Positions 11,563 through 21,654 of a stretch of 21,769 nucleotides of DNA are shown here, one piece after another. Source of the stretch: a virus; the IMG/VR virus record IMGVR_UViG_3300034198_009924, positions 1 to 21,769 of that record; one strand, written 5' to 3'. How positions within the stretch are numbered: the first letter of the stretch is position 1; each line of letters opens with the position of its first letter. The notes under the pieces are model-generated. The model had not been told where the DNA came from. It saw only the letters and a list, made by a program, of their open reading frames with translations, and ran no database searches. The translations under genes and the position numbers were made by a program.

Positions 11563-12210
11563 ATGCTAGATATAAAAAAAATAAGACTAGTCTTATCATG
11601 TATAATTTTGCCCGTACTAGTTTTTCTTTTAGTACGTTGTGATAGTAAAATATCATATTCAGAATTGATTGTATTTAAACCAGTTACTACTATTTCTCAG
11701 TCAACGGTTAATATATTAACAGAAATTAAAATTATTAATCCAATTAAGTTGCCAGAAGTAGCTAAATCTGCTGAATCAGTACCAGTGCCTTCTATTGTTG
11801 ATAATAAGCACATTAAATGTATGGCTGATAATATCTATCATGAGTCAGCAGGTGAACCATATATGGGTCAAGTTGCTGTAGCTAGAGTGGTTATCAATAG
11901 AGTTAAGCATAAATTTGCTTCAGACCCGTGTAGTGTAATCTATCAATCTATAAAAAAAGCTAAACTAGACAAAGAAGTAGTACATTGTCAATTTAGTTGG
12001 GTGTGTCAGGGTAAGAAAACGCCCCCACATAATTCTTTATACGAGCAAGCAATAGAAATTGCTACTCAAGTGATAACTGAAGATAAATGGAAAGATGAGT
12101 TCAATGACAATGTACTGTTTTTTCACAGTACTAGAATACCAACTCAGTGGACTTATAATAAAGCATTTACGATTGGTAATCACGTATTCTACTCATATGA
12201 CAAAAAATAA
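11563..12210 (+). CDS. SleB-type cell wall hydrolase with N-terminal membrane anchor (lysin)
   Basis: The 215-residue protein has a single hydrophobic segment at about 9-24 (LVLSCIILPVLVFLLV) preceded by basic residues, then a Hydrolase_2/SleB domain. The domain signatures are clear: CMADNIYHESAGEPYMGQ with the likely catalytic Glu94, VAVARVVINRV, CQFSWVCQGKK, and the terminal FTIGNHVFYSY. This family cuts peptidoglycan glycan strands, so it is the probable endolysin. The N-terminal segment without a convincing lipobox (LVRC, with Arg at -1) fits a signal-anchor-release or membrane-tethered lysin exported by the host Sec system. No separate holin is visible nearby. A strong ribosome site (AAAGGAG) precedes it, and its stop shares bases with the next start (TAATG). 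Confidence 0.88.
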   Translation: MLDIKKIRLVLSCIILPVLVFLLVRCDSKISYSELIVFKPVTTISQSTVNILTEIKIINPIKLPEVAKSAESVPVPSIVDNKHIKCMADNIYHESAGEPYMGQVAVARVVINRVKHKFASDPCSVIYQSIKKAKLDKEVVHCQFSWVCQGKKTPPHNSLYEQAIEIATQVITEDKWKDEFNDNVLFFHSTRIPTQWTYNKAFTIGNHVFYSYDKK

Positions 12211-12749
12211 TGAAGATACATTGTATACATGATTTAAGTAATACTACTATAATTGATTTATTAAGTAACTCACTACAAGATATTCAGGATGATAACATTG
12301 TTAAAAATTATCATCCTGACTATAGTAATACTTCAGGAAATCTATTTTATATTCTTAACGAGGGTAGATATCAGCGTGGAAAATATTTTGTAGTCACTAT
12401 AGACGATAAGTATGTGTGTAGTGCCGGATGGAATGAGTATGAATCAAATGTGGCATTGTTACTTACTAGAATGTACATTGTTCCTGAATATCGTGGACAA
12501 TATATAATTGGAAATAATATACTTCCATTATGTATTAAAGAAGCAAACTCATATGATCATTTATGGATAACAGCTAATGATTATAATCGTTCGATATATA
12601 CTTACTTTGAAAGAGCTAGTCAAAATAAACGAACCGCATTATTCAATGACTGGCCTGACATTTACAAACGATTTAAGCCACTAGGTAAGAAAATAGTATA
12701 TTACACTGAACAATGGGTAGCAGAATATGACAAATCAACCAACAACTGA
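12210..12749 (+). CDS. GNAT-family acyltransferase
   Basis: The 179-residue protein resembles GNAT enzymes, which transfer an acyl group from CoA or a carrier protein to an amine. The core is YFVVTIDDKYVCSAGW (beta 2-3), then LLTRMYIVPEYRGQ and IIGNNILPLCIKEA, the motif A strand, pyrophosphate loop and helix. The loop is degenerate: GQYIIG follows YR where RxxGxG/A is usual. The final part, YFERASQNKRTALF, matches the substrate-side helix. It is coupled by TAATG to the lysin and overlaps the acyl carrier protein gene by 23 bases, so acyl-ACP is a plausible donor. That last point is inference. Confidence 0.72.
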   Translation: MKIHCIHDLSNTTIIDLLSNSLQDIQDDNIVKNYHPDYSNTSGNLFYILNEGRYQRGKYFVVTIDDKYVCSAGWNEYESNVALLLTRMYIVPEYRGQYIIGNNILPLCIKEANSYDHLWITANDYNRSIYTYFERASQNKRTALFNDWPDIYKRFKPLGKKIVYYTEQWVAEYDKSTNN

Positions 12750-12963
12750 AGCAGAAAAACTTGAATTTATGCAACAAGCAGTAGACAAATTATTTAAAAT
12801 TAAGTTTAAACTTAGTTTAAGTGATAATCTATATGATCTAGGTATAGATTCACTAGACGTAATTGAACTTCAATTAAATTATGAAGATTCTTTCAATATA
12901 CAGCTACCTGATACTCATAAGCCAATAGTATACGTATCAGACGTAATCAATCTAATGCCCTAA
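12727..12963 (+). CDS. acyl carrier protein
   Basis: The 78-residue acidic protein has the length and layout of an ACP. Helix 1 is EAEKLEFMQQAVDKLFKI. The phosphopantetheine site is LGIDSLDVIELQLNYEDSF, with Ser42 in the DSLD motif that host AcpS-type transferases recognise. The last helix is YVSDVINLM. ACPs carry acyl or aminoacyl groups as thioesters. No phosphopantetheinyl transferase gene is visible in the window, so the host's would be needed. The start lies inside the upstream GNAT gene and the stop overlaps the next start (TAATG), so the three are translated together. Only one ATG is sensible for the start. Confidence 0.92.
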   Translation: MTNQPTTEAEKLEFMQQAVDKLFKIKFKLSLSDNLYDLGIDSLDVIELQLNYEDSFNIQLPDTHKPIVYVSDVINLMP

Positions 12964-13883
12964 TGATTAACTTCACACATAATAATCATTTAAAATACAC
13001 CATTAATGATAGACTTTATGGTGTTAGAGAGACTCCCTATGAAAAATTCTTGGTGACTTGTGGTACTATTGATCATGATTATTACAAGTCTAGTTCATGG
13101 CTCAACGAACAGTATCGTACTGCTAGATTAATAAGAGAAGACTTTGGATCAGAGTTCTTGGTCATGTTCAGCGGCGGTACTGACAGTGAGATAGTATTAA
13201 GAGCATTTAAGCATATTGGTATCACACCTAGATCAGTTTTTATTAAATTCAAAAACGATTATAATATCGAAGACTTAGTAATAGCTGAGAAAATTGCAAG
13301 AGAATTAGATATCAAACTTGAAGTTATTGAATTTGATGTTAAAGAGTTTTATCGTAGCGGCGAAGCATACGAATTCTCTAAAGCAATTCAATGTCGTCAA
13401 ATGGCATATCTAACTGTATATCATCATATATTAAAATTACAATCTCCTGCTATCATGGGTGGAGAAATGTTTCTTCGTCGTCATGTAGATACAAAGGGAA
13501 GTCAATGGTACTATTGTTTTCGTGAGAATGAAGATGCTTCAGCAATGAGATTCAGTATTAAATATGACATACCATTGGTCAATGAATGGTTTAGTTATAC
13601 TCCAGAAATGATGGGTTATTATATAAATCATCCAGATATAGACAGTCTTATTCACACTAGATTGAATTATAAAATGGCTAGTGTTAGTAGCAAAAATAGT
13701 ATTTTAAAAAAATTAATGTCAGATATAGTTGACAAGAAGAAAACTCATGGGTATGAACAGTTAATGGGATTTAATGGGGAAACTTATCGAGCATTATATC
13801 AAAGTCATGTTAAACGATTAGAAAGTAGTCTAGATGGTATATTCATCGACGATTTAAAACAACAATTATTTGGAAGAATATAA
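12963..13883 (+). CDS. PP-loop (N-type ATP pyrophosphatase) enzyme, asparagine-synthase-like
   Basis: The 306-residue protein has the N-type ATP pyrophosphatase loop SGGTDS at 70-75 in FLVMFSGGTDSEIVLRAF. These enzymes adenylate a carboxylate, amide or base and then add a nitrogen or sulfur nucleophile (asparagine synthetase, QueC, ThiI and others). It shares with the protein at 18070 a second pair of motifs: IQCRQMA (142-148) and MGGEMFLRRH (165-174), against SQCQRYA and GGGDIYLQRH. There is no N-terminal glutaminase domain and no Cys2, so ammonia from glutamine is unlikely. Coupling by TAATG to the ACP and to the next gene suggests it acts on the same pathway. Confidence 0.82.
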   Translation: MINFTHNNHLKYTINDRLYGVRETPYEKFLVTCGTIDHDYYKSSSWLNEQYRTARLIREDFGSEFLVMFSGGTDSEIVLRAFKHIGITPRSVFIKFKNDYNIEDLVIAEKIARELDIKLEVIEFDVKEFYRSGEAYEFSKAIQCRQMAYLTVYHHILKLQSPAIMGGEMFLRRHVDTKGSQWYYCFRENEDASAMRFSIKYDIPLVNEWFSYTPEMMGYYINHPDIDSLIHTRLNYKMASVSSKNSILKKLMSDIVDKKKTHGYEQLMGFNGETYRALYQSHVKRLESSLDGIFIDDLKQQLFGRI

Positions 13884-14476
13884 TGTCAGTAGTTAAATTA
13901 ACCAGTGATCATATAGAACAAGTAAAAGACTTGTTTACCAATAAGAAATATATGGGCTTAGATATGAATAATGAAGCTTTTAGTCTTGAAGATACCACAT
14001 TTAATAAATTAACCTATGACATTTTTTGTAGTAATTATTTAAGCGATTTACAAAACTTTCATGCTTATGGTTATGTAGAAAATAATACAGTAAAATCATT
14101 GATATCATTTTACGAAAGCATTGAAGAACCAGCATGGTACTACACTGTGTATCGTAGTAGTGGAAACAATGAACTACTTAGACCAGTATTAGATGAAGTT
14201 ATTAAGCACAATGAAGATCGTGATAGGCTAAAATTTTATACACTAGTTAATCAAAAACATAGTAGACTACTCAGAAGATTTCATTGGAGTAAATACAATG
14301 ATGAACGATATGGATATTTTGACGAATACATTGTTCCAATAAAAAACAAGTGCTATTACACAAATGCTTGGGAACTATTGTACAAAAGAATGTTGTTGCC
14401 AGAAGATAGTATTGTTCGTTGTAATTATCTAAAACAAGAGTATAGAACTACATTACCCATTGGAGGAAACATATGA
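13883..14476 (+). CDS. GNAT-like protein of uncertain activity
   Basis: The 197-residue protein (MSVVKLTSDHIEQVKDLFTN...) has the general order of a GNAT fold. It has an N-terminal strand-helix, a central pair HAYGYVENNTVKSLISFYES, then WYYTVYRSSGNNELLRPVLDEVIKH where motif A would fall, and LYKRMLLPEDSIVRCNYL near the end. The acetyl-CoA loop is not clear, so the assignment is tentative and the enzyme may be inactive or use another donor. Its ATG overlaps the PP-loop stop (TAATG) and its TGA overlaps the desaturase start (ATGA, 14473-14476), placing it firmly in the ACP-desaturase operon. Confidence 0.6.
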   Translation: MSVVKLTSDHIEQVKDLFTNKKYMGLDMNNEAFSLEDTTFNKLTYDIFCSNYLSDLQNFHAYGYVENNTVKSLISFYESIEEPAWYYTVYRSSGNNELLRPVLDEVIKHNEDRDRLKFYTLVNQKHSRLLRRFHWSKYNDERYGYFDEYIVPIKNKCYYTNAWELLYKRMLLPEDSIVRCNYLKQEYRTTLPIGGNI

Positions 14477-15282
14477 CAACATTATCAAAATATCTAACCA
14501 CAATATCTAAATCATTTTGGTTTCAATGGGTGCCAGCAGTAGTATTGGGTACATTGACAATCGTACTATTAGCAGTGGGTATCATTCCGCTGTACTATCT
14601 GTGGTCGACGTTAGTTATGTGGATATTAGTATGTGGATTGGGTATTGCAGTTGGCTATCATCGTGTATTTTCTCACAAGACTCATACGTTACCAACGTGG
14701 AAAGAAAACATTCTATTATTTCTAGCCACATTTGCTGGTCAAGGTGGTTCAATATTTTGGGTTGCACTACATCGTGGTTATCATCACCCTCATAGTGACA
14801 CAGCATTAGACTTGCATAGTCCCATATACTATGGAAAAGTAAATGCATTCGTTGGATGGTATTTAAAAATCACTGAATCAAACAACACTGTCAATTTTAA
14901 ATATGCGGTTGATCTATTACGTAAACCAAATCACGTATGGTTTCATAAGCATAGTCTACATATATTATGGATCGTGCCTGCGTTGGTAGCACTAATAGAC
15001 TGGCGATTAGCATTATGTGCATTTTGGTTGGTGACATTAATTGGGTCTACTCAAGACAATTTAGTGAATGTATACGGTCATATTAAAGGATGCATTGGCT
15101 ATAGAAACTTTGAGACTCGTGATCAATCACATAATAATTTTCTATTAGGTTATCTAGCATGGGGTCAAGGGTGGCATAACAATCATCATCAATTTCCAGC
15201 CAGCTATGACTTTGGAACTGGAGTATCGGGTAAATGGTGGGAATATGATCCATGTAGAATATTTCTCCCACTATTAAAATAA
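14473..15282 (+). CDS. membrane fatty-acid (acyl) desaturase, delta-9 type
   Basis: The 269-residue integral membrane protein has all three histidine boxes of the diiron desaturase family: HRVFSH (63-68), HRGYHH (100-105) and HNNHH (235-239), plus a conserved-type QSHNN near 219-222. Hydrophobic segments lie at about 20-57, 81-98 and 160-195. Such enzymes use O2 and an electron donor to insert a double bond into an acyl chain on CoA, lipid or ACP. With an ACP gene 1.5 kb upstream in the same coupled operon, an ACP-bound or membrane acyl substrate is plausible. It is intact and of normal bacterial length. No electron-donor gene is visible. Its start is within the ATGA overlap with the previous gene. 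Confidence 0.93.
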   Translation: MTTLSKYLTTISKSFWFQWVPAVVLGTLTIVLLAVGIIPLYYLWSTLVMWILVCGLGIAVGYHRVFSHKTHTLPTWKENILLFLATFAGQGGSIFWVALHRGYHHPHSDTALDLHSPIYYGKVNAFVGWYLKITESNNTVNFKYAVDLLRKPNHVWFHKHSLHILWIVPALVALIDWRLALCAFWLVTLIGSTQDNLVNVYGHIKGCIGYRNFETRDQSHNNFLLGYLAWGQGWHNNHHQFPASYDFGTGVSGKWWEYDPCRIFLPLLK

Positions 15283-15302
15283 TTAATTTAATTTAATTAT
15301 TT
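15277..15302. terminator. possible AT-only hairpin between convergent genes
   Basis: A perfect 10-base inverted repeat (AAATAATTAA and TTAATTATTT, six-base spacer) overlaps the desaturase stop and lies between the converging desaturase and ABM genes. It contains no G-C pair, so as an RNA stem it is weak. It is the only candidate for a boundary between the two operons. Confidence 0.3.
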
Positions 15303-15322
15303 CGTAATGATCTTCATAAAAC

Positions 15323-15640
15323 TTACAATGTATTAAATATATTCGTAATACCATTTAATGAGTTATATGCATCTCTGGCTGCAAAGTGTGCGATGACGAT
15401 AGGATCATTATAATGTTCATTCATCGATTGTTCATTTTCCCATTCTATTATTACAGTTATCGCAGTGGGAGTGGCTGTTATTATTCGATCAATGATTTTT
15501 CCAGTGTTCAGGTATTTAGTACTCAGTAGTTCATCGAAATCATCAGTAGATTTCGATGAACCATGTTCGTCATGATACCACGGAATGGTAATGTCTGGTC
15601 TAGTGAATACTCGTACTGTTACTATGATTGAATTGTTCAT
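15323..15640 (-). CDS. ABM-like / dimeric alpha-beta barrel protein
   Basis: The 105-residue protein has the strand-helix-strand pattern of ferredoxin-like dimeric barrel proteins. It has IIVTVRVFTRP, a long helix with SKSTDDFDELLSTKYLN, ITVIIEWENEQSMNEHYND and a final helix PIVIAHFAARDAYN. The segment IEWENEQSMNEHYNDP resembles the W(x)s...h..sp part of antibiotic-biosynthesis monooxygenase (ABM) domains, whose members are cofactor-free oxygenases or small-molecule binders. The fold assignment is moderate and the activity unknown. It has its own ribosome site (AGAGGAAT) and an upstream late promoter element. It is the last gene of the minus-strand group. Confidence 0.6.
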   Translation of the reverse strand: MNNSIIVTVRVFTRPDITIPWYHDEHGSSKSTDDFDELLSTKYLNTGKIIDRIITATPTAITVIIEWENEQSMNEHYNDPIVIAHFAARDAYNSLNGITNIFNTL

Positions 15641-15658
15641 ATTAATTCCTCTATATAG

Positions 15659-15666
15659 TATTTATC
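15659..15666 (-). promoter_or_regulatory. late promoter element GATAAATA for the ABM-like gene
   Basis: On the minus strand GATAAATA is followed by CTATATAGAGGAATTAAT and the ATG at 15640. It lies in the 37-base gap between the bicupin and the ABM-like gene, so this gene may have its own late transcript. Confidence 0.55.
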
Positions 15667-15677
15667 ATTTAATCAGA

Positions 15678-16364
15678 TTAATTAAATAGATTGACGGGTA
15701 AATTGACTGCTTGACTACCTGATGGTAAATAAGTACGATTTAGTAAAGTGTGATCATGGTCAGTTGGTCCCCAATCACCGTCTGGATGAAATGATATAAC
15801 AATAAGTCCACTGTCTTCTGTTACGAATCGATGTACTTCCTGTTCTTCCATACAAAATACCGCACCCGGTATTAAATCATGTTTATAAGTCGGTGACTGA
15901 GCATAACCGCGCCCTGACGCAACAATACCTAATCTAAAAGAAGGATGAGTATGAAATGTTTGAACAATTCCTGGAGGAAAATGCAATGAGCTTAAACTAG
16001 GATCCCCTTTGCGAGGCGGATATACTAATAAACTATCACTGCAATGATCTATATAACATAAACGACCTTGTTTCTCAATTGGACCTCCGAATACATTTTG
16101 CCCATGATAACCAAATTTAACAATACAGAATCCAACTCCATTGACAATAATTGTGTCACTACTGTATCTGCTACTGATTGAAAAGAATTCACTTGATGCT
16201 ACAGTTTTTGTATCTGATACGATCATTGCACCGCTGATACAAAATCCATATACTGTTGAGTTTTTTGGAACAATAAATTCCCCGTTAGTAATTTTATGAA
16301 CTTCGCAGGGATACATACTGTCGGTTCTATCTAATACTACATTGGCTTCGTTGCTAATAAACAT
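15678..16364 (-). CDS. bicupin-like metal-binding protein
   Basis: The 228-residue protein has a C-terminal cupin. Motif 1 is PPGIVQTFHTHPSFRLGIV with His138 and His140, but Arg144 where a ligand Glu is usual. Motif 2 is IPGAVFCMEEQEVHRF with His178. The N-terminal half (EVHKITNGEFIVPKNSTVYG ... GAMIVSD) looks like a second, degenerate cupin without the histidines. Cupins include dioxygenases, epimerases, isomerases and sugar-binding proteins. Three histidines are enough to hold a metal, so catalysis is possible. The tail HPDGDWGPTDHDHTLLNRTY is also His-rich. It has its own late promoter element and ribosome site (AAGGAAAA). Substrate is unknown. Confidence 0.75.
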   Translation of the reverse strand: MFISNEANVVLDRTDSMYPCEVHKITNGEFIVPKNSTVYGFCISGAMIVSDTKTVASSEFFSISSRYSSDTIIVNGVGFCIVKFGYHGQNVFGGPIEKQGRLCYIDHCSDSLLVYPPRKGDPSLSSLHFPPGIVQTFHTHPSFRLGIVASGRGYAQSPTYKHDLIPGAVFCMEEQEVHRFVTEDSGLIVISFHPDGDWGPTDHDHTLLNRTYLPSGSQAVNLPVNLFN

Positions 16365-16384
16365 TATATTTTCCTTATTAATAA

Positions 16385-16392
16385 TATTTATC
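16385..16392 (-). promoter_or_regulatory. late promoter element GATAAATA for the bicupin gene
   Basis: On the minus strand GATAAATATTATTAATAAGG leads to the ATG at 16364, with AAGGA as ribosome site. It lies in the 48-base gap after the GNAT gene. The first 13 bases are identical to the element in front of the oxygenase at 20219. Confidence 0.55.
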
Positions 16393-16412
16393 TAATCAAT
16401 CAGTGAGATATA

Positions 16413-16862
16413 TTAAATCCATTGAATGGTTCGATAATATTCTGGAATTAGTCCTTTCTTTATACTTCCTGCAATCACATGTTTATTGTCAGAATGTATG
16501 ATACTTCCTATAGAAACTCCACCTCGTTTTTTAATAATATCTTTAAGATATTCGTGACTCATGTAATTCAACCCACGACGACGATATTTTGGATCAGTGA
16601 ATACTAAAGTTATCCAGCCTTCTGATCGATCAGCAATATATTCGTATACTTGACCTGCCATTACCTCATTATTAGAATTTTCTATCCATATAGAAGAACT
16701 ATTATTTCTAAACGGCATACTAGGAAGAGTCATTCCACTCTTCAGTAATTCTAAATAGCATTCGAACATTAATATTAACGGAGGAATGTTCACTAATGAA
16801 TCACTGTGCCATATTGTCAAAATTTCTCCGTCTTTTTCAATAGTGTCTATAATTTTTTTCAT
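16413..16862 (-). CDS. GNAT-family acetyltransferase
   Basis: The 149-residue protein has a clear GNAT core. MAGQVYEYIADRSEGWITLV forms the central strands, TDPKYRRRGLNYMSHEYLKD gives the motif A acetyl-CoA loop (RRRGLN) and helix, and VSIGSIIHSDNKHVIAGSIKKG with YYRTIQWI completes the C-terminal half. It transfers an acyl group to an amine or similar acceptor. Length is typical. The ATG at 16862 has GGAAG a few bases upstream. It lies between the ATP-grasp ligase and the bicupin, in the same direction. The acceptor is unknown. Confidence 0.8.
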   Translation of the reverse strand: MKKIIDTIEKDGEILTIWHSDSLVNIPPLILMFECYLELLKSGMTLPSMPFRNNSSSIWIENSNNEVMAGQVYEYIADRSEGWITLVFTDPKYRRRGLNYMSHEYLKDIIKKRGGVSIGSIIHSDNKHVIAGSIKKGLIPEYYRTIQWI

Positions 16863-16888
16863 GTTACTTCCTTTAATTATTAATTACT

Positions 16889-18076
16889 TTATTTGCTGAC
16901 ATTTTTTTTCCAATGATTTATGATCGTCATATCATGGCGATACTGCTCTGCATCATTGTTCTGAACCATGATCATTCCCAATACTTCAGGAAAGTTCTTA
17001 GTTACTGGTATTATTCCTGGAAATTTTTTAGGATACTTTTCGCAGAATCTAACTGATTCTAATTTTTCGATGGGCGACCAATCAAGTTCGTGCATATAAC
17101 GCTCACGATAATTGTTCACGCACACTTTATTAAAGTCACCCAATTTATTATACATAATGGCGGTAGTACTAGGTAAATTCAAGTACGCTCGTAAGCTTTC
17201 AATTGCCCAGTGATTACCAGTAGCATTGTTTATAGGTCCGATAACAGCACGACCCTGACTACGAAAGTTTATTTCGACTAAGTTTGGCACACCATTGTTG
17301 ATCTTAACTTGAGTCCATGTGAGTCCAAGTCTGATGCCCAGTGAGTCTAAAATACTAGTAACATAATCATATAATATCGCAATGTTAGGATCATCAGATG
17401 ACACAAGTTCATTCTCTTCTCTCCATGGATATATATCGTTCACTAAGTATTCGCCTTTATATAAACTGGCCATAGTACAGCGATGTATACCATCACGAGA
17501 GCATATTTCCATGCAATATTCAGGACCTTCTACATAGTCCTGTACCATATATTCAATATTACTGTCAAGTAAATTTAGGATAAAATCGTAACCGGGTTTG
17601 ATATGAACATTAATATTACCCGCTCCATTAGTAGGCTTGACTACTAATGAGCGATCACGACAGTTTTCTACGGTCTCTCTGGTCAATACGTACTGATCAG
17701 TAGTAACGTGACCGAAGCTGCGAAGATAATTTAAATATTCGTACTTACTAGAACGTTGTTGTTGTTTAGAAACATCGTTACATCGATCGGAATAGTAGTG
17801 TGCTTGTAATCTGTCCGCAAGTGAAAATCCCTCGTCCTCACCATTGATAAAACATTGAATGTTATAGAGTTTTAGATCGTTATTCAGTTGATCCCAATCA
17901 CCAGTGTATACAATGTGATCATCAATTTGATTCAATGCGGCATTGACTGCGTATTCACGATGTCCGATACTGGGCCATATTGCCAGCACATGATAACGTT
18001 TAAAGTGATTTTTAATCATGGTTACGTATCCATACCCACTATAACGTACTGGGTTAACCAACGCAATTGTTAACAT
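16889..18076 (-). CDS. ATP-grasp ligase
   Basis: I place the start at ATG 18076 because GGAGAAG sits directly upstream and it overlaps the PP-loop gene stop by ATGTTAA. An eight-codon longer version has no ribosome site. The 395-residue product has an N-terminal Rossmann-like part (MLTIALVNPVRYSGYGY) and an ATP-grasp core. SLVVKPTNGAGNINVHI (about 142-158) is the lysine and glycine loop, YMVQDYVEGPEYCMEI (from about 174) the second nucleotide-contact strand, and VPNLVEINFRSQGR (about 260-273) supplies the metal-binding Glu and Asn. ATP-grasp ligases join a carboxylate to an amine or thiol through an acyl phosphate. The layout resembles amino-acid ligases and CarB/PurK-like enzymes. Substrates are unknown. 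Together with two PP-loop enzymes it points to amide-bond chemistry. Confidence 0.85.
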   Translation of the reverse strand: MLTIALVNPVRYSGYGYVTMIKNHFKRYHVLAIWPSIGHREYAVNAALNQIDDHIVYTGDWDQLNNDLKLYNIQCFINGEDEGFSLADRLQAHYYSDRCNDVSKQQQRSSKYEYLNYLRSFGHVTTDQYVLTRETVENCRDRSLVVKPTNGAGNINVHIKPGYDFILNLLDSNIEYMVQDYVEGPEYCMEICSRDGIHRCTMASLYKGEYLVNDIYPWREENELVSSDDPNIAILYDYVTSILDSLGIRLGLTWTQVKINNGVPNLVEINFRSQGRAVIGPINNATGNHWAIESLRAYLNLPSTTAIMYNKLGDFNKVCVNNYRERYMHELDWSPIEKLESVRFCEKYPKKFPGIIPVTKNFPEVLGMIMVQNNDAEQYRHDMTIINHWKKNVSK

Positions 18077-19062
18077 TGATTCTTCTCCGGTGTTAGCCAC
18101 TCTAATAACGTTTCGTGATCAATGATAATTTCACGTTTTTTATACGCGCTGACGTTTTCTAGAATCAGTCTAATATCCGTATTAAGATCGATATCTCGTC
18201 TCAATTCAGCCATCATACTCTCAAATCCATTATACTTCGGTCTAATAGTCATATCTGGCCAATGACGATAGTACATGTATGGTTTGATAGCAAAATAATT
18301 CATATTGGTAAACTTACTGCATGTCGCCACTTCATATTTGATCCAGTGCGAGATATCAGAATCAGTCAAGAATGCCAGCATAAGTTCTGGAGTGTGCATG
18401 AAAAAACGATTAGATGCATTACCGCCTAATTCATGTGCTGCTTCAATAGGAGCTAATGAAATAAGTTCTTCTTCCAAGAACATACCCGCTTTCTCAGGTC
18501 TGCCGTTAAATCTATGACGTTGTAAATAGATATCGCCACCACCAAATACACAGTGAAAATTAGGAAACTGTTTAACCAATTGAGTGTGTAAAATAATACC
18601 CCATAGATCACTAGCATATCGTTGACATTGGCTTGTTACTGAGTTGCGTATGAAATCTTCCATGTCAATGGTCACAGTTCTATACTTTAAATTGTGTTCT
18701 TTTACAAAATCAAATGCATACTTAGTGTCATAATCATTAATGTGATCATTGTCTCCAAACTTTAATTTCATAATAACAACTTCAAAATCGGCGTTTGCTT
18801 CCATAAATGAGCGCACTACTATCTCACTGTCTATACCTCCGCTGTAACACACTAATACAGGTTTATTTGCGTTTTGTGCAATTAATTCTGCTGCTCGTAC
18901 ACATTCTTTCCTGAAAGAAACGGGTTGATAAGAAGCACGACCAAACTTGACCCAAAATATCCCAGTCTTGTCGTCAAAATTAAATAAACCATCTCCCCAC
19001 CCAAATTGAAAATGATTATTATGAGTCGTATACATTACAGTGGTATTATTCTTTATTATCAT
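18070..19062 (-). CDS. PP-loop (N-type ATP pyrophosphatase) enzyme, second copy
   Basis: I choose ATG 19062, which overlaps the upstream stop as ATGA; a TTG two codons earlier is less likely. The 330-residue protein carries SGGIDS at 74-79 in VLVCYSGGIDSEIVVRSF. It shares SQCQRYA (144-150) and GGGDIYLQRH (174-183) with the enzyme at 12963, so the two are distant paralogues with related chemistry. No glutaminase domain is present. The stop overlaps the ATP-grasp start (ATGTTAA), so the two adenylating or phosphorylating enzymes are made together. The C-terminal region (FFMHTPELMLAFLTDSD) matches SYTPEMMGYYINHPD in the other copy, extending the similarity beyond the ATP site. Confidence 0.85.
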   Translation of the reverse strand: MIIKNNTTVMYTTHNNHFQFGWGDGLFNFDDKTGIFWVKFGRASYQPVSFRKECVRAAELIAQNANKPVLVCYSGGIDSEIVVRSFMEANADFEVVIMKLKFGDNDHINDYDTKYAFDFVKEHNLKYRTVTIDMEDFIRNSVTSQCQRYASDLWGIILHTQLVKQFPNFHCVFGGGDIYLQRHRFNGRPEKAGMFLEEELISLAPIEAAHELGGNASNRFFMHTPELMLAFLTDSDISHWIKYEVATCSKFTNMNYFAIKPYMYYRHWPDMTIRPKYNGFESMMAELRRDIDLNTDIRLILENVSAYKKREIIIDHETLLEWLTPEKNQC

Positions 19063-19571
19063 ATACAATAACCAATATTATTATTAATTTTAAATAAATT
19101 ATACATAGATGAATAATCAGTAGTAGTGCATCCAATCGATATGACATATCGATTTACATTGCTTTCGTTTCGAACTTCATGAAATTTTTTAGTGTTTAAC
19201 ATTACCCATTGATTTTTAATATAAGGTATTAATGTGTTTTCAGTTTTGTCATCATTGTAACAAAGTGCTTTAAATTTATCATTATTGTCGCTAATTAACA
19301 TGTTCATAGCAAATTGTCTGTCAGAATCTTTGTGTATTGCATATGACCATCCTGGGACATTTTTAAAACATCCATACTCTGAAACTTTAAATGGCATAAT
19401 TTTTTTTATTTTAAGACATATCTCTATTGGTAAATCAATGCGACATTGTTTAAATTTACTGATCCAAAATTGATTATTTTTCTCTGCGTATAATACGTAT
19501 TCTTTAATTTCCTCAATTAATTCCGGATGATTATAATTAATATACTCGAAATAATCAGATAACTTATCCAT
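19059..19571 (-). CDS. 2OG-Fe(II) oxygenase-like protein
   Basis: I start at ATG 19571, which overlaps the preceding stop by eight bases (ATGGATAA). The 170-residue product has the iron-binding triad of 2-oxoglutarate oxygenases. His80 and Asp82 lie in GWSYAIHKDSD, His131 in TKKFHEVRNES, and Arg141 ten residues later is the expected 2OG-binding residue. AMNMLISDNND after the HxD resembles ALNIVLQCNDD in the neighbour at 19564, so the two are related but clearly diverged. Such enzymes hydroxylate or otherwise oxidise protein, nucleic acid or small-molecule substrates. The protein is short, and its substrate is unknown. Confidence 0.75.
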   Translation of the reverse strand: MDKLSDYFEYINYNHPELIEEIKEYVLYAEKNNQFWISKFKQCRIDLPIEICLKIKKIMPFKVSEYGCFKNVPGWSYAIHKDSDRQFAMNMLISDNNDKFKALCYNDDKTENTLIPYIKNQWVMLNTKKFHEVRNESNVNRYVISIGCTTTDYSSMYNLFKINNNIGYCI

Positions 19572-20175
19572 GTTGATTAATATTATCAAATGTAATTCTA
19601 CTACATAATTCAGTGAATGTCGGAAAATCGTCGAATTTAGTTTGAATTATTATGCGAGGATTCGGTCCAGAACATTTCCAAGTGTGAAAAGTGTTCACAT
19701 CAATAATATATACGTCCCCGACTTTGCTTTTAAATTCTTCAACAAATTGCATATTTTCTATTACATCTACTGGCAATGAAGTTTCGCGAGATGAATTACC
19801 ATTGGCGAATTTCAATGACTGAAGTTCAGATTGTTCTAAAATTAAATCATCATCGTACCATCTAGTCCAATCATCATCATTGCATTGCAAGACGATGTTT
19901 AAAGCACTGCGACATTTAATTCCATCTTTGTGAATTGGATACACGAATTTTGAATCACTATAGAATACTTTCTGAACATATTTTCCATCTATTCTTTTTT
20001 GAACTTTCATGTCAGTAATTATTATGGTATTGAGATAATTTAAAATTTCTTCATCAAATTCAATTCTTTGAAATTTTTTTGTAGTTTTATCATTATGATG
20101 TTTAAGAATCATTGATTTCAACTGTTCAATTATTTCAATTGAAAGAGTCCCAAGAAGTTTATGATGTACGTTCAT
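19564..20175 (-). CDS. 2OG-Fe(II) oxygenase-like protein
   Basis: I place the start at ATG 20175 (MNVHHKLLGTLSIEIIEQLK), since the N-terminus then aligns in style with the oxygenase at 20760 and longer versions would run into the divergent gene. The 203-residue protein has His82 and Asp84 in FVYPIHKDG, His164 in VNTFHTWKC and Arg174 in NPRIIIQTKF, a complete HxD...H...R set on a double-stranded beta-helix fold. No ribosome site precedes the ATG. Instead CATAAATA lies five bases upstream, which may make the message leaderless. It is the first gene of the minus-strand group and is coupled to the next oxygenase. Confidence 0.8.
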   Translation of the reverse strand: MNVHHKLLGTLSIEIIEQLKSMILKHHNDKTTKKFQRIEFDEEILNYLNTIIITDMKVQKRIDGKYVQKVFYSDSKFVYPIHKDGIKCRSALNIVLQCNDDDWTRWYDDDLILEQSELQSLKFANGNSSRETSLPVDVIENMQFVEEFKSKVGDVYIIDVNTFHTWKCSGPNPRIIIQTKFDDFPTFTELCSRITFDNINQHG

Positions 20176-20180
20176 AATAC

Positions 20181-20188
20181 TATTTATG
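20181..20188 (-). promoter_or_regulatory. late promoter element CATAAATA, divergent pair (minus)
   Basis: On the minus strand CATAAATA is followed by GTATT and then the ATG at 20175. With the six-base distance seen at 1691 and 2220, transcription would begin exactly at that A. It is one half of a divergent pair with the element at 20206-20213. Confidence 0.5.
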
Positions 20189-20205
20189 TTCATCGATTTG
20201 ACATT

Positions 20206-20213
20206 GATAAATA
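20206..20213 (+). promoter_or_regulatory. late promoter element GATAAATA, divergent pair (plus)
   Basis: GATAAATA is followed by TTATT and the ATG at 20219. The spacing is the same as in the divergent minus-strand element, and no ribosome site fits between box and start. The 43-base region between the two genes holds little else. Confidence 0.5.
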
Positions 20214-20218
20214 TTATT

Positions 20219-20758
20219 ATGATAGACGTTACCAAAATATTACGTAAATTAACTGACGAAGAAATATTGATGTTGAAACTCGATCTCAATAATATTGATC
20301 ATCTATGGTCTAATCATTCTTTGGATCAAACTACTCATCCGACTGCTTTGGGAATGGGAAAGACTGTTCATTTGAACTCGTGTAGCAACGAACTGGTTTT
20401 TGAGTATAGTATACTGAACACATTACCTAATACCAATAAAATTATCAGTGATATCGTCGGTTCAAATCATATAGGAAGAGCATATTGGCATAGATTAATG
20501 CCAGAAAATCAAATTGATTTTCACACAGACTCTGACATTCCGTTTGTAAAAGACAATAGACTAATTCATCGTTATCAAATATACTTAGAATGTACATCTA
20601 AAAATATTATAATATTGGATGGTACATACAAAAACAGTGCAGAATTTGAATACAGTGTAGTTGATTTTGCTCTCACTAACGTACATTATTATAAAAACTG
20701 GTCGAGTAAACCATGGTATCTTTTGGTATTTGATGCAGTGAATCAACCGCTTTCATAA
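20219..20758 (+). CDS. 2OG-Fe(II) oxygenase-like protein, Asp/Asn-hydroxylase type
   Basis: I use ATG 20219 over an upstream in-frame ATG at 20186 because the earlier one would lie inside the divergent promoter region. The 179-residue product has His102 and Asp104 in QIDFHTDSD, Arg118 in LIHRYQIYLE, and His156 in TNVHYYKNW with a Lys164 that could bind 2OG. The motif order resembles aspartyl/asparaginyl beta-hydroxylases. It abuts the next oxygenase with one base between stop and start. There is no ribosome site, see the promoter element just upstream. The substrate is unknown. Confidence 0.72.
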   Translation: MIDVTKILRKLTDEEILMLKLDLNNIDHLWSNHSLDQTTHPTALGMGKTVHLNSCSNELVFEYSILNTLPNTNKIISDIVGSNHIGRAYWHRLMPENQIDFHTDSDIPFVKDNRLIHRYQIYLECTSKNIIILDGTYKNSAEFEYSVVDFALTNVHYYKNWSSKPWYLLVFDAVNQPLS

Positions 20759-20759
20759 T

Positions 20760-21290
20760 ATGAAACATTCTTTTCCGTTCAAATTAATAGATAACTTAGA
20801 TAGTAATATTTTAGAACAATTTAAAGTATTCGTATTACATCAATCTTATCATGCAATGGAAGACTTCACGGATTATACAATTCAATCATCAAGAACATTA
20901 AATGAAAATGATATAATTTTTAAAAATTTATTGAATGTTTATCTGTCAAAATTTTTTAATTTATCTGGACATCTTGGTAGTAATATTGCTAGAATGAATC
21001 CTAATTCTTATTACCCAGAACATTCAGATTATACTGGAGTTAAATTAGGAAATAGACAAGACAATATTATAAAATTACAAATTCCTATAATTACTAGTGT
21101 TTCAGCTGGACTTATGTGGCGTCATGATTCTGAAAATCGTTCTACTTGTTTAAGTTTGAACGAGGGCTCAATTTATATATTTGATAATTGCAGAGTACAT
21201 TCATCTGTCAATTTTAGTAGTGATTATAGATATTGGATTACTAGTAGATGGCATAGACTATCATTACTGGATACATCAATATTAAATTAA
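20760..21290 (+). CDS. 2OG-Fe(II) oxygenase-like protein, Asp/Asn-hydroxylase type
   Basis: The 176-residue product has His88 and Asp90 in YYPEHSDYT, a strand IIKLQIPIIT, His147 in NCRVHSSVNF and Arg157 in DYRYWITSRW. This is the arrangement of the aspartyl/asparaginyl hydroxylase branch of the cupin-fold 2OG oxygenases. The N-terminus (FKLIDNLDSNILEQFKV) resembles those of the neighbouring oxygenases. It starts one base after the previous stop and so depends on that transcript. It ends just before the first of two palindrome-promoter units. No partner protein is evident. Confidence 0.78.
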   Translation: MKHSFPFKLIDNLDSNILEQFKVFVLHQSYHAMEDFTDYTIQSSRTLNENDIIFKNLLNVYLSKFFNLSGHLGSNIARMNPNSYYPEHSDYTGVKLGNRQDNIIKLQIPIITSVSAGLMWRHDSENRSTCLSLNEGSIYIFDNCRVHSSVNFSSDYRYWITSRWHRLSLLDTSILN

Positions 21291-21322: not shown

Positions 21323-21351
21323 TTGACATTAAATCTGCTTTCCTCTATAAT
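21323..21351 (+). promoter_or_regulatory. consensus sigma70 promoter
   Basis: TTGACA (21323-21328) and TATAAT (21346-21351) are both perfect consensus with a 17-base spacer. The small gene at 21381 follows. A promoter this strong in a phage usually serves immediate-early transcription by host RNA polymerase. Confidence 0.88.
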
Positions 21352-21380
21352 GGTTGTATTGTCTAAACAAGGAAGAAAAA

Positions 21381-21625: not shown

Positions 21626-21654
21626 TTGACAGTAATTATAGTATTTGCTATAAT
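21626..21654 (+). promoter_or_regulatory. consensus sigma70 promoter
   Basis: TTGACA (21626-21631) and TATAAT (21649-21654) are perfect consensus with a 17-base spacer, as in the unit before it. It drives the partial gene at 21686. Confidence 0.88.

Follow-up and report, generated by a model that had tools for sequence, protein, structure and literature searches.

The viral DNA considered here is the IMG/VR record IMGVR_UViG_3300034198_009924, analysed in its entirety (21.8 kb, referred to as the window), which carries a conserved five-gene core, gnat1-ACP-ppl1-gnat2-desaturase (12210-15282). On balance, with a little better than even confidence, this core is read as a cassette for the biosynthesis of an N-acyl-amide (lipo-amide) dependent on an acyl carrier protein (ACP). 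The original prediction for this DNA, made from the sequence alone, had assigned 14 genes at 12210-21290 to one pathway, and all of these genes sit where it had placed them. However, the accessory half (15323-21290) varies independently among relatives, an outcome that the prediction itself had named as speaking against it, whereas the five-gene core clearly does not vary in this way. The 9-kb "cluster" is therefore two things, a conserved five-gene core and a variable accessory set.

When 2.9 million viral contigs were scanned with the single ppl1 sequence, nine loci came up, and an alignment of those then gave 74 IMG/VR loci, which together with the window make up the 75 loci referred to below; all viral relatives are metagenomic. 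Gnat2 accompanies ppl1 in 72/75 loci and the desaturase in 69/75, compared with 40/75 for the most frequent among 250 further families of genes lying within 7 kb, showing that the linkage of the core goes beyond chance; the ACP is found in 34 loci and gnat1 in many. The genes occur in two arrangements, gnat1-(acp)-ppl1-gnat2-des and des-ppl1-gnat2, the latter without gnat1 and ACP in 16 loci, and thus the linkage survives rearrangement. A reverse scan from gnat2 found ppl1 alongside in 69 of the 72 loci fetched, the other three being cut at the contig end, and a reverse scan from the desaturase found a ppl1-family gene within 4 kb in 72 of the best 80 of its 586 relatives. The most distant core members have ppl1 proteins that are 47-50% identical to that of the window, so that the conservation of the core is not recent clonality. 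For gnat1, ppl1, gnat2 and the desaturase, unsaturated pairs give a dN/dS of about 0.03-0.3, and these sequence-derived ratios indicate purifying selection on all four. More divergent virus loci in the order gnat1-ppl1-(gnat2)-des (L277, L278, L280, L281, L283, L297, L299, L301 and L303) have weak profile scores, suggesting that the cassette family is probably larger than 75 loci. Within the window, the predicted coupling of the genes is borne out by overlaps of 1-4 bases at ACP/ppl1, ppl1/gnat2 and gnat2/desaturase, and gnat1/ACP overlap by 23 bases.

The anchor of the core, ppl1, is a protein of 306 amino acids with its P-loop at residue 70 and no N-terminal glutaminase (class II GATase) domain, and its score against PF00733 (15.6 bits) lies below the Pfam cut-off of 21. 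The best PDB folds for its AlphaFold model (pLDDT 94) are AsnS and AsnB, followed by carbapenam and beta-lactam synthetase, with a TMq in Foldseek of up to 0.51 for beta-lactam synthetase; MnmA, LarE and TtuA match at lower TM-scores. The viral model closest to it is that of an uncharacterised protein from an uncultured phage (TM 0.85), and the next ones include an annotated asparagine synthase. The SGG.DS loop, K244 and K260 are invariant across the alignment, and a MAFFT alignment pairs ppl1 NEDASAMRFSLKYNIPLVNE with the AsnB C-domain motif. On its modelled fold, ppl1 is assigned as a PP-loop enzyme of the asparagine/beta-lactam-synthetase type.

The predicted ACP with an intact DSLD site was recovered by PP-binding (PF00550) at 27.7 bits against a cut-off of 20.8 and by NCBIfam acyl_carrier at 1e-9, and the DSL serine of the phosphopantetheine site is present in 34/34 phage ACPs. 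The neighbouring gnat1 scores 17.1 bits against Acetyltransf_7, below the cut-off of 27, and R87 and R95, among other residues, are invariant in its 32 non-redundant relatives. A tie between the two proteins comes from one locus (L026:9237-10004), in which a single frame of 255 amino acids combines GNAT1 (residues 1-179, 9e-81) with ACP (residues 182-254, 8e-28), a natural fusion that links gnat1 to the carrier protein. A quorum-signal synthase of the LuxI kind was set aside, since neither gnat1 nor gnat2 matches such a family.

The product of gnat2, which the original prediction had called only GNAT-like, has no sequence match, yet its AlphaFold model (pLDDT 83) gave 293 PDB matches at E<=0.001, with the matches listed being acetyltransferases and TMt up to 0.72, indicating a GNAT fold by predicted structure. 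W85, R115 and R142 are invariant, and the gene lies nearly always directly downstream of ppl1. The desaturase scores 45.3 bits against PF00487 (cut-off 29.7), and the three histidine boxes predicted for it, HRxxSH, HRxxHH and HNNHH, are conserved together with N199/H203 in 46 sequences, with the core di-iron histidines invariant. It is nearest to the acyl-CoA desaturases of known structure (SCD1, 3e-24), in a superfamily that also includes hydroxylases and acetylenases. The closest desaturase among phage records, labelled Acinetobacter phage MD-2021a (CAKLQH020000002.1; L077), was rejected as a viral relative, as accD, trp and btuB mark this stretch as bacterial chromosome.

The core also occurs in bacteria. 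Patterns for ppl1 run over 84,980 species genomes returned four loci, all in metagenome-assembled genomes of Bdellovibrionales and at 25-28% identity; these patterns are restrictive, and more distant bacteria may have been missed. A match to the ppl1 profile at 1e-10 was found in 24/141 Bdellovibrionales genomes, and when 369 genomes were sampled from the phylum, the one phylum covered by the deep ppl1 profile search, all 23 that were positive at 1e-12 fell in Bdellovibrionales. In one genome (G003), about 15 kb hold ppl1, two desaturases, gnat2, ACP and gnat1 together with an AspH, another 2-oxoglutarate (2OG) protein, two B12-radical S-adenosylmethionine (SAM) enzymes of the same families as those near phage cores, an SDR and a split transketolase, on a contig that carries lon and other housekeeping genes. 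Gnat2 was found in 2/141 Bdellovibrionales genomes, in both with ppl1 on the same contig, and five genomes have a cluster-type desaturase on the ppl1 contig and a longer desaturase elsewhere, the longer ones forming a clade of their own. In the ppl1 tree, the phage core proteins form one well-supported clade separate from the bacterial ones, which argues against recent transfer; some phage second PP-loop copies group with bacterial ppl1, on long branches. Despite deep divergence, the five gene families have thus stayed linked both in phages and on a Bdellovibrionales chromosome. As a side observation, small proteins in or beside the Bdellovibrionales clusters bear a twin-arginine-like motif near their start (Table 1), which was not noticed in the phages; a role as an exported partner or acceptor is possible for them.

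Taken together, the gene set supports acyl and amide chemistry on a carrier protein, as had been predicted, and the following sequence of steps is proposed. The phosphopantetheinyl transferase and fatty-acid synthesis of the host would load the phage ACP (or the host ACP where the phage has none), and the membrane desaturase would place a double bond in the acyl chain. GNAT1 would then take the acyl group from the ACP and N-acylate an amine, e.g., an amino acid or a polyamine, after which ppl1 would adenylate a carboxylate and join it to an amine through a second amide bond. GNAT2 could carry out a further acyl transfer or complete the ppl1 reaction. The variable 2OG oxygenases, radical SAM enzymes and cupins would tailor the product differently in each phage, as might, in the window, the amino-acid-ligase-type ATP-grasp with ppl2. 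The product would probably be a lipo-amide that is synthesised during infection and either acts on the envelope or is secreted. There are precedents for individual steps: the GNATs SbzI, SbzC and FeeM take acyl groups from discrete carrier proteins (PMC6331615), OlsB is an N-acyltransferase that uses acyl-ACP (PMC11631085), and JamB/JamC pair a membrane desaturase with an ACP (PMC8406139). Each proposed step is therefore chemically reasonable. Searches of the open-licence literature yielded neither a viral pathway of this kind nor a named system matching the set, in line with the original prediction.

Several observations weigh against this reading, which draws on linkage and predicted structure, the sub-threshold family E-values being weak. 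The profile-profile match between ppl1 and AsnB is limited to the P-loop part, and the equivalence of the catalytic lysine consequently depends on the MAFFT alignment. Neither gnat1 nor gnat2 has a sequence match to the OlsB or FeeM models, and no acyl-ACP ligase (AMP-binding) or thioesterase was found among the cluster proteins scanned. The ACP, whose count stayed at 34 in an iterative search across the 75 loci, appears not to be essential as a phage-encoded protein, and it evolves fast, with a higher dN/dS of 0.15-0.7 at distances near saturation. The des-ppl1-gnat2 loci without gnat1 and ACP suggest that the minimal unit may be three genes supplied by host acyl-ACP or another donor, and that the ACP-GNAT1 step may be an add-on. 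Finally, whether the desaturase acts on acyl-ACP, acyl-CoA, acyl-lipid or a non-lipid substrate cannot be read from its sequence.

An alternative, which we consider unlikely although it is the strongest of the competing readings, is that the core adds groups to a surface glycan or to lipopolysaccharide. Here, ppl1 would amidate a uronic acid or amino sugar in the manner of an AsnB-type O-antigen amidotransferase, the GNATs would use acyl-ACP to N-acylate amino sugars, and the oxygenases would modify the acyl group, altering the surface of the infected cell or a virion glycan. A Bdellovibrionales contig of 30 kb with gnat2, a desaturase and two ppl1 copies is consistent with this, as it also has UDP-sugar-dehydrogenase-like and epimerase-like genes and, judged by eye, glycosyltransferase-like genes; in addition, an epimerase and a UDPG dehydrogenase are among some phage neighbours, and the related chemistry island of Pelagibacter phage Mosig lies beside tail-fibre genes and includes a sugar aminotransferase. 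However, the sugar genes are single cases among 115 neighbour families, no glycosyltransferase is among the 25 families listed, and the glycan genes lie outside the conserved core. More doubtful still is the modification of a ribosomal peptide or a virion protein, i.e., a lipidated product resembling ribosomally synthesised and post-translationally modified peptides (RiPPs) or protein acylation, in which a GNAT would acylate lysine, the AsnB-type ligase would make a macrolactam or amide, and radical SAM, AspH and ATP-grasp enzymes would tailor the product. The enzymes known to tailor RiPPs include AsnB-like cyclases, ATP-grasp ligases, SPASM radical SAM and AspH enzymes, and SPASM/radical SAM families do occur near cores. 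To our knowledge, RiPP clusters do not typically combine a carrier protein with a membrane desaturase, and among open reading frames (ORFs) of 50 amino acids or more near the core, the range covered, none recurs in all loci. In favour of this alternative, nostolysamides are reported to be lanthipeptides acylated on lysine side chains (PMC13060382).

That unrelated auxiliary metabolic genes merely gathered in a hypervariable island of T4-like phages seems improbable. The accessory genes do differ from locus to locus and resemble the Mosig island, but for the core a chance accumulation was rejected, given the linkage from three independent queries, the two gene orders, the GNAT1-ACP fusion and the recurrence in Bdellovibrionales. 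The modification of nucleic acid or tRNA, with the PP-loops acting on bases like QueC or MnmA and the GNATs acting like phage Mu Mom, is the least probable of these readings and is disfavoured. The weak matches of ppl1 and ppl2 include QueC, MnmA and TilS, and PADLOC returned nothing but a weak QueC resemblance of ppl1 (8e-6). However, the Pfam and NCBIfam matches lie below curated cut-offs, the TM-scores place ppl1 nearer to AsnB/beta-lactam synthetase than to MnmA/LarE/QueC, and no role for the ACP and the desaturase is evident. The lipo-amide cassette thus remains the preferred reading of the core.

The accessory set (cupin, gnat3, ATP-grasp, ppl2 and four 2OG oxygenases) differs from phage to phage. 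The series abm-cupin-grasp-ppl2 recurs in one contig (L010) and in part in two others (L042 and L019); alignment scans of the viral contigs with ppl2 and ATP-grasp returned the L010 contig only, and a scan with the single ATP-grasp protein gave no viral match. In the remaining loci, the genes around the core encode different oxygenases (AspH, TauD), radical SAM and SPASM enzymes, methyltransferases and further PP-loop proteins, and among 115 representative neighbour families, oxygenases, radical SAM enzymes and methyltransferases are the most frequent. The call of an ATP-grasp ligase was upheld: its protein matches PRK07206 (6e-34) and, among characterised ligases, a solved L-amino acid ligase (30vh, 6e-12), BL00235 (0.002) and DdaF, a dapdiamide synthase (2e-13, below the curated cut-off), showing the similarity expected of an L-amino acid ligase over the ATP-grasp domain. 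The cupin is 92% identical to the copy at L010:13807-14481, against 58-64% for its module neighbours, suggesting a recent exchange of the cupin gene alone; a related cupin lies in a Bdellovibrionales cluster (2e-20). All four predicted HxD...H proteins have the HxD motif plus a distal histidine, and the start of og2 is probably near 20175, although the listed ORF runs to 20289, because its relatives have about 200-205 amino acids. As for the protein predicted to be ABM-like, the gene is present, but the family assignment is weak. Overall, ACP, desaturase and gnat3 are above curated Pfam cut-offs, with both PP-loops, the ATP-grasp and the cupin being sub-threshold, and the single PHROGs match is a family of unknown function for the desaturase.

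Table 1. Core and accessory genes of the window, with the twin-arginine-like small proteins of the Bdellovibrionales clusters in the last line
Feature	Description	Part	Coordinates	Strand	Basis
gnat1	predicted GNAT-type acyltransferase	core	12210-12749	+	Acetyltransf_7 0.007; 32 non-redundant relatives
acp	discrete acyl carrier protein	core	12727-12963	+	PP-binding 3e-6; DSLD intact
ppl1	predicted PP-loop amide ligase of asparagine/beta-lactam-synthetase type	core (anchor)	12963-13883	+	predicted fold; SGGxDS
gnat2	second GNAT-fold protein	core	13883-14476	+	predicted structure; linkage to ppl1
des	membrane di-iron acyl desaturase-like enzyme	core	14473-15282	+	FA_desaturase 1e-11; SCD1 3e-24
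abm	small ABM-like protein	accessory, module 2	15323-15640	-	ABM E = 0.1; syntenic in L010, 58%
cupin	bicupin-like protein	accessory, module 2	15678-16364	-	AraC_binding 7e-4, Cupin_2 1e-3 (sub-threshold)
gnat3	GNAT	accessory	16413-16862	-	Acetyltransf_1 7e-5, above cut-off; family in 13 loci
grasp	ATP-grasp of L-amino acid ligase kind	accessory, module 2	16889-18100	-	PRK07206 6e-34, DdaF 2e-13
ppl2	second PP-loop protein, distant ppl1 paralogue	accessory, module 2	18070-19068	-	SGGIDS; QueC/ATP_bind_3 sub-threshold
og1	HxD...H 2OG-oxygenase-like protein	accessory	19059-19589	-	HKD 86, H137; no Pfam family call
og2	HxD...H 2OG-oxygenase-like protein	accessory	19564-20175	-	HKD 120, H202 (long-frame numbering); family in 26 loci
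og3	HxD...H 2OG-oxygenase-like protein	accessory	20186-20758	+	HTD 113, H167; family in 18 loci
og4	AspH-type 2OG oxygenase	accessory	20760-21290	+	Asp_Arg_Hydrox 9e-4; HSD 88 + distal His
small proteins	twin-arginine-like		L080:14638-15075, L149:3685-4083, L116:8809-9261, L112:9078-9515, L118:10809-11300

The carriers of the cassette are T4-like phages known only from metagenomes. Of 12 larger contigs tested, six encode the T4-type capsid protein Gp23, in four cases with a match of about 1e-97, and the INPHARED phages (50,697 records) hold no relatives of ppl1, ppl2 or gnat2, which agrees with the original prediction that the combination is unusual for a phage. Other genes of the window are nrdA, nrdB and genes for a glutaredoxin, a PAAR protein, a Hint-domain protein and a cell-wall hydrolase; the Hint (intein-like) module lies in a protein at 605-1669, with a match of 2.6e-4 that is below the cut-off and a likely tail-protein context. 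Searches of the window with Rfam and for tRNAs gave no match. The T4 late-promoter consensus TATAAATA occurs zero times in the window against 4.8 expected, so that the late timing originally predicted cannot be supported by this route; over the 75 loci it is about two-fold depleted (132 vs 256), which may come from avoidance of the octamer or from an effect of coding. Two perfect sigma-70 promoters (TTGACA-17-TATAAT, 12/12) lie on the + strand at 21323-21351 and 21626-21654, one of them just before a small ORF at 21354, and are probably host-type early promoters of the next operon; the frequency of sigma-70-like sites is not above that in shuffles.

The metabolic genes known from phages mostly supplement pathways of the host. 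In contrast, the core described here would be an anabolic cassette of several enzymes, in many loci including a carrier protein, for which no counterpart was found in sequenced phage isolates. Its product, if a lipo-amide, would count as a specialised metabolite encoded by a virus and would give phages a new way to change host membranes or their surroundings. The 2OG oxygenases are abundant in aquatic T4-like phages without explanation, and here they lie beside a defined core that could make the substrate on which they act. Because the core recurs in Bdellovibrionales, its product could also be found in bacteria, independently of the phages. A broader proposal, which is tentative and rather unlikely to hold in full, is that a widespread group of T4-like phages carries a complete heritable small-molecule pathway for a family of lipo-amides, diversified by swapped oxygenases and radical SAM enzymes and held in common with Bdellovibrionales. 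If those Bdellovibrionales prey on Gram-negative bacteria as named members do, two unrelated killers would use the same chemistry, which could serve, e.g., to remodel or seal the envelope of the victim or to exclude competitors.

None of the known systems compared contains this set of genes, each differing in its defining parts. Asparagine synthetase B, beta-lactam synthetase and carbapenam synthetase (PF00733) share with ppl1 the PP-loop fold and the AsnB-like order of C-domain motifs, but ppl1, unlike these enzymes, is short, without the glutaminase domain and below the Pfam cut-off. The tailoring of ornithine lipids by OlsC and OlsE, which are AspH-family and di-iron membrane enzymes, is a likeness to the cassette. 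The OlsBA pathway for ornithine lipids and other aminolipids likewise has an N-acyltransferase acting on acyl-ACP (PMC11631085); however, it is without a PP-loop enzyme, and neither PF13444 OlsB nor the OlsA O-acyltransferase has a match here. The island of Pelagibacter phage Mosig EXVC030M (MT647606; L076, 47768-72283) also belongs to a T4-like phage, and its desaturase, Asp_Arg_Hydrox, TauD, GNAT, carbamoyltransferase and MoaA-like genes adjoin the tail-fibre genes, but it has no ppl1 or gnat2 and its desaturase is 31% identical over 70%. The pairs FeeM/FeeL (N-acyl amino acid synthase) and SbzI/SbzG (SB-203208 cluster) resemble the core in forming an amide with a GNAT and a discrete ACP, and the sbz cluster also has a cupin dioxygenase and adenylating enzymes (PMC6331615). 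Compared with FeeM, the ACP partner is present here, and fused to GNAT1 once, with no FeeM-family sequence match; unlike in both systems, no adenylating acyl-ACP ligase was seen, an AsnB-type PP-loop would perform the activation, and a desaturase is nearly always present. The JamABC alkyne/polyyne cassette is similar in its membrane desaturase with a dedicated ACP, and polyyne clusters carry several desaturases, as the Bdellovibrionales cluster carries two (PMC8406139). In contrast to JamABC, the core shows no JamA acyl-AMP ligase, thioesterase or rubredoxin and has the PP-loop enzyme and the GNATs instead.

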